Part shown: one piece after another, positions 20,741 through 57,693 of the stretch
Numbering within the stretch: position 1 is the first letter of the stretch
Layout: the number at the start of each line of letters is the position of its first letter
NCBI RefSeq assembly: GCF_027531705.1
Contig: NZ_JAPZSP010000025.1
Coordinates: 17,761-81,760 of the forward strand
Length of the DNA: 64,000 nucleotides
Reading direction: 5' to 3'
From: Flavobacterium sp.
GTDB lineage: Bacteria > Bacteroidota > Bacteroidia > Flavobacteriales > Flavobacteriaceae
Notes under the pieces: model-generated
Seen by the model: the letters and a program-made list of their open reading frames with translations, nothing else
Told to the model about the DNA's origin: nothing
Databases searched by the model: none
Program-made: the position numbers and the translations under genes

Positions 20741-20807
20741 GGTTTTATTTTATTCTTCACGCAACCTTTTTTTGTTTTGAAGACTATTAAATATAAAACA
20801 AAAAGTC

Positions 20808-22106
20808 ATGAGATCTATTAAAAAAATTGTCATAATCTTAACGTCCTTATTTATATCATGCCAAGTAGAACCTCTGGATGAAAGCTTGTTAAACAACAGT
20901 GCTAACAACTCTAGTAATTCTGAAAAGATTGAAAAGAATTCTGAATTATACACATTGTTAGAAAACGTAACAAATGATAAAGGCAACCCAACTGAAAATA
21001 TTGTATGCCTAGATTTTATTTATCCTTTTAAAGTTTTAGTTTATGATACTACTTCAGCTCAAATTGGAAATGTATTACTAACAAGCGACCAGCAATTTAG
21101 TTTGTTTTTAGAAAACCTTCCTATAGACCAAAAAATAAGCATAAGTTATCCAATAAATACAATATTGGAAGATGGCGAAATTTTTTCTGTAAATAACAAT
21201 TCTGAATTAAAATTAGCAATAGAAAGCTGTTCAAAAGAAGACATAATAAACCATTGCAACAATACATTTGGTGGAGAACAATCAGTTTGTATTTGGAAAA
21301 TACCCTATACAATAGAAAACGACAACAAATACTCCAGCGGGTATTTTAACACAAACAGTAATGGTTCTTTAGAATACACTTACAATGGAACTACTTATTC
21401 AGGAACATGGATATTCTTGTATGTTGACAATAAACTACATATAAATATAAATCTAGAAGGCTCATCCCAAGTTGCTCAAGATTGGAATATTGACAGGGAA
21501 ATAGAATTGATTAATGAAGATATAGTAATAAAAAACGAATTGAAAGATATTATTTTAAGAAAATCATGTGAGTCAATAATAGAATATCAAATAGGCGATA
21601 CAGGTCCAGCTGGAGGAATTGTTTTTTATGACAAAGGAAGCTATAGCGAAGGTTGGAGATACATGGAAGCAGCACCTTTAGACACTAATTCGACAGAATG
21701 GGGTTGCTTTGGAACATTAATTGAAAACACAAATAGTCCTGAAATTGGCAAAGGATTATTAAACTCAATTTTAACGACAAATTATCATGACAATTTATTC
21801 AATTACTATTTGAACCCAAGCATTTGTAACTCAGCAAATAATGGAACTGTCGCTAGTAGAGAGGCTCTCATTTTTGAAATAAACAATATAAAAGATTGGT
21901 TTTTACCTTCAGAAGAAGAACTTGCCTTAATGTATCAAAATTTAAAAAATGAAAATTTAGGATCATTAACAAACTCTCATTATTGGAGTTCAACACAAGT
22001 TGATGAAAATAACGCAATAGCAATAGATTTCTCAAACGGAGCAGTAATTACTCAATTAAAAATTGAAATAATACCTACAAAAGCTAGGGTTATTAGATAT
22101 TTCTAA
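20808..22106 (+). CDS. Lipoprotein with DUF1566/Lcl-like C-terminal domain
   Basis: Lipobox LFISCQVEP; IGDTGPAGGIVFYDKGSYSEGWRYMEAAP ... WFLPSEEELALMYQN ... YWSSTQVDENNA. Confidence 0.78.
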   Translation: MRSIKKIVIILTSLFISCQVEPLDESLLNNSANNSSNSEKIEKNSELYTLLENVTNDKGNPTENIVCLDFIYPFKVLVYDTTSAQIGNVLLTSDQQFSLFLENLPIDQKISISYPINTILEDGEIFSVNNNSELKLAIESCSKEDIINHCNNTFGGEQSVCIWKIPYTIENDNKYSSGYFNTNSNGSLEYTYNGTTYSGTWIFLYVDNKLHININLEGSSQVAQDWNIDREIELINEDIVIKNELKDIILRKSCESIIEYQIGDTGPAGGIVFYDKGSYSEGWRYMEAAPLDTNSTEWGCFGTLIENTNSPEIGKGLLNSILTTNYHDNLFNYYLNPSICNSANNGTVASREALIFEINNIKDWFLPSEEELALMYQNLKNENLGSLTNSHYWSSTQVDENNAIAIDFSNGAVITQLKIEIIPTKARVIRYF

Positions 22107-22146
22107 ATTCAAAAAAAGAAACGTATATTTAAAACAAAAAAAATTC

Positions 22147-22698
22147 TTGAATCTAGAAAACCTCATAAAATCTTGCATAAAGCAAAATAGGCAAGCACAA
22201 GAAGAGTTATACCATTTGTATAAAAAAACTCTTTTCGTGTTGAGTCTTAAATATTGCGCAAACGAAACTGAAGCTGAAGATAACCTTCATAATTCTTTTA
22301 TTGAGATTTTCACCAACATTAAAAAATTTGATAACAAAGGTTCGTTTGAAGGTTGGATGAAACGAATTACCATAAATAAAGCTATTGATAGCTATAAAAA
22401 GAAACTCCAACATATTACTTTAAAAGATGACAATATCCAAGATACGACAATAGATGAAGATGAACTAGAATATTCACTAGATTATATCTTATCAATTATT
22501 CAAGAATTACCGCATCAATATCGATTAGTTTTTAGCTTATACGAGTTAGATGATTATTCACATCAAGAAATTGCTCAAATGCTTTCAATATCTGAAAGTA
22601 CTTCAAAATCAAACTTGCATAGAGCAAAAGTTATTTTGAAAGAAAAAATAAAGTCAAAAAATTCATTCCATAATTACTCAATAGAAAATGGGAAATAG
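22147..22698 (+). CDS. ECF-type RNA polymerase sigma factor (TTG start)
   Basis: SFEGWMKRITINKAIDSYKKK; ELPHQYRLVFSLYELDDYSHQEIAQMLSISESTSKSNLHRAK. Confidence 0.9.
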   Translation: MNLENLIKSCIKQNRQAQEELYHLYKKTLFVLSLKYCANETEAEDNLHNSFIEIFTNIKKFDNKGSFEGWMKRITINKAIDSYKKKLQHITLKDDNIQDTTIDEDELEYSLDYILSIIQELPHQYRLVFSLYELDDYSHQEIAQMLSISESTSKSNLHRAKVILKEKIKSKNSFHNYSIENGK

Positions 22699-24223
22699 AA
22701 AAGATATAGGAACGATTTTGAAAGAAAAAATCAATCGTTTGGACAAATCTCCAAATGAAAATGGTTGGAATGCTATTCAAACTGAATTAGACAAAAAAAA
22801 GTCTAAAAAAGTTTTTTTACTATATTGGCTTTCAAGTCTTTTGATAATTTCATTAGGCATTCTCATAACGAGCAAACTTTTATTAAATCAACCTAAGAAT
22901 AATGACACAATCCACTTAGAAAATAGATTAAATAAAATAAAAGAAAACCGAAATAACACCAATAATAAATCTAAAGATTCTAATCAAATTAAAATTGAAG
23001 CTAAATCAAAACATACTAATCTCACTAATGAAGCATCAGAAAAAATTGAAGAAAACAATAAAATAAATATTACTACAAAGAACAACAAGGTTTCAAAAAC
23101 AACGCTAAACAACTCTAATCCAGTAAATGAAAAACATGCGTATAACAAAAAATCTACTTCAAACAAAAGGATAAGTGCTTTAAAAAGTAAAGAAGATAAA
23201 TCTACATTCAAATCAAAAAAAATAGGATCAGTTTCAAAAAGAAAATTAAAAAAGAAAAAATCTAGTAGTATTCTTGAAAAAAATAACTTTGGCACTAACA
23301 TTTTTCAAAATGATAGTTCATCAAAGAACAGCGAAAAGGGAAATACTAAATTTTCAACATCAAGTTCAAATGAGAACAAAGATTCTAATGTTATTATAAA
23401 AGACAAGTTAATTTCTGACGAAAAATTATCAATCCAGAAAACTGGAAATAAACTTGAAAAAGAAAAGCTAAATCAAATTAGTAAAGACAGTATCAAAAAG
23501 AAAAATGAAGCTCTAAAAACAAAAAAAGATTCTGTCAGCAAAATTATAGAGAAAGAAAGATATGTAACTGTTTTTATATATGGAACACCAACTTTTTATA
23601 AACCACTGAATGAAAATTTCATACTAGATAACAGCTTAAAAAACAACCCTACAACATCAAAAACACAACTAAGCTATGGAGCTTACTTATGTTTTCAAGG
23701 AACCGACAATCTTAGTATTAGACTTGGATACGGAAAAAATAACATAAAATATAGCACTCAAAATGTAACAATAAATACTTCTAACTTTTCAAATATAGAT
23801 TATGATTCAGGGGTTTCAAATCAATTCATATATAGCCAGTCTAACAACTCAAAATCAATGTCTGTTTTTCAAGAGTTATCTTATACCGATATTCCATTTG
23901 AAATAAAATATAAGATATTAAAGAAAAAAGTAGGTTTTAATGCAATTTTTGGTGTTAATTTTCTGCTACTAGAAAAAAATGAAGTTTCAATAGTAACTGA
24001 AAACGGTTTAAAATATAAAATTGGAAAAACTGGAAATCTTTTGAAACAAAGTTTTGGGGCAAACATAGGCTTAGGTCTTGATTATAAAATTTCTAAAAGA
24101 ATAAAAATAAATGTTGAACCAATGATTAAATATCATTTCAAAGATATTGAAAATAGAAAGTCAGACTCTTATATCTTTAACATCTTAACTGGAATTGAAT
24201 TCGATTTATTTAAAACTAATTAG
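22688..24223 (+). CDS. Candidate dual-membrane-spanning anti-sigma factor (cytoplasmic N-term, single TM, disordered linker, C-terminal outer-membrane beta-barrel)
   Basis: Overlaps sigma gene by 11 nt; TM VFLLYWLSSLLIISLGILITSKLLL; K/N/S-rich linker; barrel-like C-terminus ...YIFNILTGIEFDLFKTN. Confidence 0.72.
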   Translation: MGNRKDIGTILKEKINRLDKSPNENGWNAIQTELDKKKSKKVFLLYWLSSLLIISLGILITSKLLLNQPKNNDTIHLENRLNKIKENRNNTNNKSKDSNQIKIEAKSKHTNLTNEASEKIEENNKINITTKNNKVSKTTLNNSNPVNEKHAYNKKSTSNKRISALKSKEDKSTFKSKKIGSVSKRKLKKKKSSSILEKNNFGTNIFQNDSSSKNSEKGNTKFSTSSSNENKDSNVIIKDKLISDEKLSIQKTGNKLEKEKLNQISKDSIKKKNEALKTKKDSVSKIIEKERYVTVFIYGTPTFYKPLNENFILDNSLKNNPTTSKTQLSYGAYLCFQGTDNLSIRLGYGKNNIKYSTQNVTINTSNFSNIDYDSGVSNQFIYSQSNNSKSMSVFQELSYTDIPFEIKYKILKKKVGFNAIFGVNFLLLEKNEVSIVTENGLKYKIGKTGNLLKQSFGANIGLGLDYKISKRIKINVEPMIKYHFKDIENRKSDSYIFNILTGIEFDLFKTN

Positions 24224-24239
24224 TAAAAAAACAATCAAA

Positions 24240-25079
24240 ATGAAATTATTTAAATTAATAATCAAAAGCATTTTTTTCCTATTATTATTTTCATGTTCGA
24301 ATGACAATAACGAGGAAGCATCAAACTCTGAGAACTTAATGACTATTAAAAAAACTATTACGTACAATTATTATGTCAATACTAGTACCACGGAAAAAGT
24401 CATAAGTTACTTTGAAAACAATAAAGTAATTACTGACAGTACATTTAACAACAATATATTTGCAAGAAAAGCAATGTATGAATATGGCAGTAATAATAGG
24501 CAACAAATTGTCTATAATAACACAAATGATTTTGTAGTAAAAAATATTCGTAACTATGATAATCTAAATAGAATAACTAGCATTAACAGTTATAACATTT
24601 CAAATCAGATTATATTCTCAAAATCATACGAATACCAAAACGAAAATATTTTTGTAACAACAATTGCTGATGGGACATCAACTCTAAAATTTCACTATAA
24701 AACTAATTCTGACAACCTACTTTTTTACGAAAAAAATCTAATTACAAACGAAACTAGAACTTTAGTTTATTCAAACAATAATCCCATCGAATTATTAGGA
24801 ACGCCAAACAACACCAATTACGAATATTATTCAACTCTAAAACCTTCAAATATTCAGAATAATAATTATGAGATTAACAATACTGCTTTAATCAACTTAC
24901 AATTAGAGCATATCTATCTATCATGCAATAATTTTTTAAAAAAAATATCAGGAACTACGTTTGTAACCGATTTTGAAAAACAGTTTAATTCTAATAACTA
25001 TGAAACATATTCGAAAACAACCATTACTCGAAATAGCGGAAGCTATATTAGTTCAGAAATATTTACTTACTATAATTAA
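24240..25079 (+). CDS. Hypothetical lipoprotein
   Basis: MKLFKLIIKSIFFLLLFSCSNDNNEE; ATG at 24240. Confidence 0.7.
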   Translation: MKLFKLIIKSIFFLLLFSCSNDNNEEASNSENLMTIKKTITYNYYVNTSTTEKVISYFENNKVITDSTFNNNIFARKAMYEYGSNNRQQIVYNNTNDFVVKNIRNYDNLNRITSINSYNISNQIIFSKSYEYQNENIFVTTIADGTSTLKFHYKTNSDNLLFYEKNLITNETRTLVYSNNNPIELLGTPNNTNYEYYSTLKPSNIQNNNYEINNTALINLQLEHIYLSCNNFLKKISGTTFVTDFEKQFNSNNYETYSKTTITRNSGSYISSEIFTYYN

Positions 25080-25105
25080 TTTAATAAATTTTGGTTAATT
25101 TGCTT

Positions 25106-25145
25106 AGCCCTAATTCAAACTAATGAATTGGGGTTTTGTTTTTTT
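25106..25145 (+). terminator. Intrinsic terminator
   Basis: ccctaattcaaactaatgaattggggttttgtttttttt. Confidence 0.75.
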
Positions 25146-25222
25146 TATTCCTTTTTGTAACTTTTTTGCAACCCTTTACGTATAACAACATGAACACTTT
25201 AAAGTAAAGGAGAAAAATATAC

Positions 25223-57146: not shown

Positions 57147-57693
57147 TGTTGTAATTTTTTAATTTGGTAATGTTGGTTTGCAACATTTTGCGTGCATGTG
57201 ATAATTGCGATTTGGATGTTCCTTCGTTTATTCCGAGTAATTCGGCTATTTCTTGGTGTTTGTAACCTTCAATTGCGTAGAGATTAAAAACCATTCTATA
57301 ACCATCGGGCAAACTATCTATGAGAAACTGAATGTCATCAACCGAGAATTTACTTTCTATATTGTTGAAACTTTCCTCGTAATAATTCTCATCTTCAATG
57401 AACTTAACTTTTTTCTGAACTCTTATATACGATATACATTCGTTTATCATGATTCGTCTAATCCAACCTTCAAAACTGCCTTTGTGTTCAAAATGCTTTA
57501 AGTTGGTAAACACTTTCATAAAGGCCGTAATCATTACATCTTCTGCTTGTTGTAAATCTTTTATATATTGTCGGCAAACACTTAACATTTTTGGAGAAAA
57601 TTTTGAATAAATCTGATGTTGCGCATGACGATTGTTCTCGACAGCCAACTCGATTAGTTCTTTTTCTTCTTGATGTAAGTTGATTACTTTCAT
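57133..57693 (-). CDS. ECF-type RNA polymerase sigma factor
   Basis: SFEGWIRRIMINECISYIRVQKKV; LPDGYRMVFNLYAIEGYKHQEIAELLGINEGTSKSQLSHARKML. Confidence 0.93.
   Translation of the reverse strand: MKVINLHQEEKELIELAVENNRHAQHQIYSKFSPKMLSVCRQYIKDLQQAEDVMITAFMKVFTNLKHFEHKGSFEGWIRRIMINECISYIRVQKKVKFIEDENYYEESFNNIESKFSVDDIQFLIDSLPDGYRMVFNLYAIEGYKHQEIAELLGINEGTSKSQLSHARKMLQTNITKLKNYNNGTE

Follow-up and report, generated by a model that had tools for sequence, protein, structure and literature searches.

Pardue et al. reportedly described in 2024 the proteins Dma1 and Dma2, together with Das1 and Das2, of Bacteroides thetaiotaomicron. Dma1 and Dma2 control their own sigma factors, and Dma2, which is encoded next to das2, comprises a head, a transmembrane (TM) helix, a tether and a barrel (PMC13088901). 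The das2-dma2 pair neighbours BT_1557 (DUF4943), BT_1556 (DUF4858) and BT_1555; deletion of dma2 upregulates das2 and bt_1555-1557, and the hypervesiculation of the dma2 mutant depends on das2 (PMC13088901), both in line with an anti-sigma role for the protein described here.

The window analysed here (the whole stretch of 64,000 nucleotides of Flavobacterium DNA) contains an operon at 20759 to 25135 with the gene order lipoprotein-sigma-Dma-lipoprotein, bounded by a conserved ECF promoter and a terminator. By homology and predicted anatomy, its 511-aa product is a Dma-type anti-sigma factor. The features of the locus are as follows.

20759 to 20787, plus strand: ECF-type promoter, ACGCAACC-N15-GACTAT, with the element and its spacing class kept 5' of 72 of 80 related operons.
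20808 to 22106, plus strand: lipA, encoding a 432-aa lipoprotein (lipobox Cys18) with a family N-terminal domain and a weak Lcl_C C-terminal domain.
22147 to 22698, plus strand: ECF sigma factor gene, 183 aa, TTG start (Pfam and NCBIfam), which clades with Bacteroides dma2-linked sigma factors.
22688 to 22698, plus strand: 11-nt overlap of the sigma stop and the dma start, read from the sequence and probably coupling translation.
22688 to 24223, plus strand: predicted Dma-type trans-envelope anti-sigma factor, 511 aa, ATG start (architecture, fold and homology).
22688 to 22804, plus strand: residues 1-39, predicted cytosolic anti-sigma head, with helices 7-16 and 24-34 and conserved P22, W27 and I30.
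22805 to 22885, plus strand: residues 40-66, single TM helix with a K/R-rich cytosolic flank (AlphaFold; hydropathy maximum 2.45).
22886 to 23563, plus strand: residues 67-292, predicted disordered periplasmic tether, pLDDT mostly below 50.
23564 to 24205, plus strand: residues 293-506, predicted 8-strand outer-membrane beta-barrel (AlphaFold, Foldseek, PF13505).
24240 to 25079, plus strand: lipB, encoding a 279-aa lipoprotein (ORF with lipobox SCSNDN), 16 nt 3' of dma.
25106 to 25145, plus strand: intrinsic terminator (12-bp stem and T-run), marking the operon end 5' of rpoD (25223).

The coordinates of the sigma gene and its 11-nt overlap with the 511-aa ORF had been given exactly in a preliminary description of the window. 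The overlap reads ATGGGAAATAG, and its length is the commonest sigma-dma spacing (23 of 79 named loci). The sigma factor matches Sigma70_r2 (6e-11) and Sigma70_r4_2 (2.4e-16) in Pfam and is also called as an ECF factor by NCBIfam. Pfam detected no FecR domain, and the operon contains no TonB-dependent receptor gene. LipA matches Lcl_C at 2.6e-6, below the curated cut-off; LipB has no Pfam domain and has weak homologues in two relatives. Elsewhere in the window, another, FecI-like ECF sigma gene lies at 57172 to 57618 on the minus strand, and part of the sequence immediately 5' of rpoD (25150 to 25200, GCAACCCTTTACGTAT) resembles the ECF -35 element of the dma operon.

Homologues were found in 92 of 200 genomes of the same genus, and the profile matched in 76 of 297 genomes across the phylum, with the sigma gene directly 5' of the head-bearing ORF at nearly all loci. 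A search of the named genomes with the Dma protein as query returned no matches, the protein having too few conserved stretches, and the sigma alignment was therefore used as the query. When loci were fetched by the sigma factor alone, a head-bearing ORF lay immediately 3' of it at 79 of 80 named loci; 76 of these ORFs span 384 aa or more and three, of 208-218 aa, lack a barrel. This adjacency, together with the same-genus homologues, indicates that the sigma-dma pairing is not due to chance. The Flavobacteriaceae loci form group A, with heads beginning MENKKDIG (as in the window), and group B, with heads beginning MSDKKNID (as in the paralogue of the same genome). At L285 (G424:C13), the sigma factor carries a C-terminal TM segment and a separate barrel-like ORF follows directly, which resembles a split version of the published Dma3 layout.

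The guess that the protein belongs to the Dma family was borne out on Bacteroides dma2-type loci, which share the sigma clade and have a homologous barrel. The comparison loci came from two genomes, very likely Bacteroides, reached via a DUF4943 search and chosen by the order das2, dma2, DUF4943, DUF4858 and an enoyl reductase-like gene. With the window sigma alignment as query, the dma-linked Bacteroides-type sigma factors ranked top at 136-147 bits, followed by scores of 103 and 68. A maximum-likelihood tree placed the window sigma, the other Flavobacteriaceae Dma sigma factors, the Bacteroides Das group and the phylum-wide head-linked sigma factors in one clade (100/98) to the exclusion of 35 other ECF factors. 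Using hhalign, the barrel aligned with the Bacteroides dma2-type proteins (probability 98.7, E 3.6e-16) and the head did not.

The window locus resembles Dma1/Dma2-Das1/Das2 in its adjacent ECF sigma factor of the same clade, its predicted N-terminal anti-sigma part, its one TM helix and its disordered tether. With Dma2-type loci it further shares the homologous barrel, a lipoprotein gene in the operon, the das2-type TTG start and, probably, autoregulation of the operon. It differs in belonging to Flavobacteriaceae and in possessing a K/N/S/T/E-rich tether of about 226 residues and its own -35/-10 element; moreover, a lipoprotein gene comes first in the operon here, whereas in Bacteroides the DUF4943 and DUF4858 genes follow dma. 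As in FecI/FecR and SusC-type TonB signalling, an outer-membrane event would be relayed to an ECF sigma factor. Unlike FecI/FecR, barrel and predicted anti-sigma part are one chain, and the sigma factor falls outside the clade of FecI-like control ECF factors.

The structure of the 511-aa protein was predicted by AlphaFold on a 63-sequence alignment. An N-terminal segment of about 40 residues followed by a single TM helix had been proposed, and these correspond to residues 1-39 and 40-66; the two head helices were modelled at pLDDT 59-73 without the sigma factor. A K/N/S-rich tether is likewise present and disordered as proposed, though with a length of 226 rather than about 250 residues: residues 67-292 are rich in K, N, S, T and E and have no predicted structure. 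Tether length varies from 126 to 304 residues among the 63 relatives, with little conservation. The beta-rich region expected over the last 210 or so residues was modelled with high confidence as a barrel of 214 residues (293-506) with eight long strands and pLDDT 82-98 (by tens). The window protein finishes in LFKTN and so lacks the customary aromatic residue at the C-terminus, which is F in 54 of the 63 relatives. Foldseek matched the barrel to solved 8-strand outer-membrane barrels, namely OmpA (E 8.5e-8), NspA (target TM 0.71), OmpW and OmpX. The OMP_b-brl model (PF13505) scored 1.4e-5 against the window protein, under the curated cut-off, and matches 25 of the 31 family members scanned. 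Comparison of the Dma profile with PDB sequences gave low-complexity matches only, such as TolA. A signal-peptidase site after the TM helix had been named as a feature that would speak against a membrane-spanning layout, and an AXA motif at this position is found in none of the 63 family members. From the predicted fold, we infer that the barrel resides in the outer membrane.

Some dozen named loci have sigma and dma in the same reading frame. Translating through the sigma stop, with a residue in its place, yields natural fusions, and nine such fusion rows were aligned together with sigma-only and head-only rows. The fold was computed on the relative L190, with both parts in one chain and for the cognate pair only. 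The head was predicted to pack onto the sigma factor (mean pLDDT 90.3, pTM 0.80), and head pLDDT was 95-98, against 59-73 for the head alone; the contact between N-terminus and sigma factor raised in the preliminary description was thus recovered as predicted packing within one chain. Sigma residues 103-104 and Dma residues 5-6 were assigned to strands, a hint that the two pair as a bridge in the model. The fused sigma compared most closely with several anti-sigma-bound sigma factors (TMt 0.67 for SigW/RsiW, 0.58 for Bartonella RpoE/NepR, 0.57 for SigK and 0.55 for CnrH/CnrY) and less so with most of those bound to RNAP (0.31-0.37 for SigH and 0.44 for SigE). However, sigma E/RseA and AlgU/MucA gave 0.43-0.48, no better than RNAP-bound sigma E, and although the modelled sigma would appear to adopt the anti-sigma-bound shape, the shape argument is not clean. 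A first covariation run was set aside as its signal mainly reflected the division into groups A and B; within groups, sigma and head covaried about three times as strongly as sigma and barrel, which agrees weakly with a head-sigma contact. The N-terminal head is thus predicted, from the model, to bind the sigma factor.

Near the conserved start of the window sigma gene, TTG is the sole ATG, GTG or TTG codon, and no in-frame ATG lies upstream. The sigma start is TTG or GTG in 76 of 80 named loci (57 and 19, respectively), and dma starts with ATG in 75 of 79. In a count made independently of start prediction, an in-frame ATG 5' of the conserved core was missing from 124 of 133 Dma-linked sigma genes, versus 5 of 30 control genes for FecI-like ECF factors of the same genus (Fisher 3e-17, kinship among sequences ignored). 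A Bacteroides das2-type gene likewise begins with TTG, four codons from the upstream stop. RsrA excess in Streptomyces depends on a poor start codon of sigR; this codon is GTC, and TTG or GTG in its place already overproduced SigR (PMC5472188). Both systems combine a poor sigma start with a good start on an overlapping anti-sigma gene, and the weak sigma start set against the ATG of dma suggests, by analogy with SigR/RsrA, an excess of anti-sigma factor. The Streptomyces pair differs in its GTC start, as opposed to TTG or GTG here, and in its soluble zinc anti-sigma factor, which senses redox state; TTG may be a milder brake than GTC.

The sequence ACGCAACC precedes 72 of 80 operons, with a -10 element and spacing that depend on the group: 15-16 bases and GACTAT or GTCTAT in group A, and 16 bases and ATCTA(C/T/G) in group B. 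In the window 20 bases separate the element from the start codon of lipA, and no sigma-A consensus was found between this promoter and the terminator. A whole-genome search with ACGCAACC-N13..19-WCTA returned four sites, compared with five for the reversed control. Two of the four belong to the two dma operons and have the family spacing and -10, which the other two do not; the exact element with family spacing and -10 is therefore confined to the dma operons of this genome. Looser patterns (including GCAACC..ACTAT) showed no excess over the reversed control or chance, and no wider regulon is claimed for this reason. On sequence grounds, the 20759 promoter is probably the target of the operon's own sigma factor. 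A link of the CGT-box (SM6) promoters of F. psychrophilum (PMC9723704) to this sigma factor was unsupported, the element here being ACGCAACC/GACTAT. Additional group B-like sites are present in other species of the genus, where larger regulons are consequently possible. Group B-type elements were also observed in same-strand pairs, spaced by about 176-180 nt, in several genomes of the genus:

G006:C3, 729665 and 729844; G008:C2, 769081 and 769260.
G015:C10, 509695 and 509875; G060:C2, 143211 and 143387.

The second dma copy of the window genome lies on another contig (L115; G000:C14:66000-78000, minus strand), in an operon with a group B promoter, a sigma gene (TTG), a 534-aa Dma and five small secreted or lipoprotein genes between promoter and sigma. 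Barrel-less head-bearing relatives of about 210-260 aa occur at L062, L070, L148, L149 and L158. The last three (208-218 aa) accompany a group A sigma gene, have rpoD just downstream and carry a Tyr-rich YYN-type peptide near the C-terminus. Judged by their sequences, these three are natural single-membrane forms and demonstrate that the locus can exist without a barrel. Other heads carry larger tails: L075 (G455:C37, minus strand, 748 aa) has head and TM helix, a TonB plug, VWA and a type IX sorting domain (Pfam); L082 (G406:C1), similar to it in sequence, has head and TM helix, TonB plug and VWA; and L086 (G216:C8, 885 aa), adjoining a sigma gene of the same clade, has head, CarbopepD_reg_2, TonB plug, VWA and YfbK_C. 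Since the head recurs with different tails, it would constitute the conserved anti-sigma unit and the tail an exchangeable input. A broader proposal, which we regard as doubtful, is that Bacteroidota join one plug-in module, the head with its cytosolic and inner-membrane parts, to varied envelope-reaching tails (a BAM-type barrel, a short periplasmic peptide, or a TonB-plug, VWA and type IX sorting tail). The anti-sigma factor would then be cargo testing the export route that it watches, with the conserved weak start keeping sigma below anti-sigma and the output being mainly its own lipoprotein operon.

Gene order, homology, sigma clade, barrel fold, promoter conservation and start-codon bias were established by computation, and beyond them we infer repression, a translational balance and a release step. 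The two N-terminal helices would hold the upstream-encoded sigma factor inactive and closed at the cytoplasmic face, with the TM helix in the inner membrane, the tether of about 226 residues spanning the periplasm and the 8-strand barrel in the outer membrane. The gene overlap and the TTG of sigma versus the ATG of dma would keep the anti-sigma factor in excess until a signal arrives. Disturbance of the barrel or the outer membrane would then lead to release or destruction of the head, and the freed sigma factor would transcribe lipA, sigma, dma and lipB from the 20759 promoter. To the anti-sigma and dual-membrane parts of this model, release step excluded, we assign a probability of roughly 85%. 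A variant in which the anti-sigma factor sits in the inner membrane alone, its C-terminal beta domain being folded in the periplasm without ever inserting into the outer membrane, is improbable: the barrel-less relatives make such a state natural and the window protein lacks the terminal aromatic residue, but its long hairpins close into an OmpA/OmpX/OmpW/NspA-like fold, the terminal F of most relatives is the usual barrel-assembly signal, and tethers of 126-304 residues suffice to span the periplasm. An ordinary outer-membrane barrel with a long signal anchor, merely co-transcribed with sigma and devoid of an anti-sigma role, would suit the Pfam result of a weak OMP_b-brl match and no anti-sigma domain. 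This is highly unlikely, however, given that head and TM helix are the most widely kept part, beside this sigma clade with differing tails, that the head is predicted to pack onto sigma, and that control of their own sigma factors by Dma1 and Dma2 has been published (PMC13088901).

For the release step within the dual-membrane model, our tentative choice, at somewhat under even odds, is that assembly of the barrel fails or is disturbed and the periplasmic part is then proteolysed, by analogy with RseA; alternatively, a lipoprotein or ligand could be sensed, or the tether pulled. RseA is a single-TM anti-sigma factor present in excess over its sigma factor and without an outer-membrane domain. 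The Dma system would share with RseA/SigE of E. coli the single TM helix, the anti-sigma excess and possibly proteolysis after failure of outer-membrane protein assembly, and would differ in its barrel. In Enterobacteria, RcsF works with OmpA, which provides a model for an input from LipA, LipB or a surface ligand on the barrel; this would keep the Dma anatomy and compete with the assembly-failure step only. It is conceivable, if on the unlikely side. In 53 of 72 loci, the interval from promoter to sigma holds at least one lipoprotein-like gene, with lipA homologues there in many group A loci; two Aquimarina loci place a lipA homologue behind its own copy of the promoter element, and the paralogous operon with its five genes and the lipoprotein gene of Bacteroides dma2-type operons point the same way. 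Nevertheless, these lipoproteins belong to at least two families rather than one, 19 of the 72 loci have no lipoprotein gene between promoter and sigma, and the lipoproteins could be output only.

Tested homology thus widens the Dma family beyond Bacteroides to include environmental Flavobacteriaceae that are amenable to genetics. Compared with the Dma literature found, the new elements are the conserved promoter, which offers a reporter and a predicted regulon, the recurring lipoprotein partners, and the start-codon asymmetry, which predicts a sigma to anti-sigma ratio. Relatives that naturally lack the barrel or bear a type IX tail allow the sensing role of the outer-membrane part to be tested directly.
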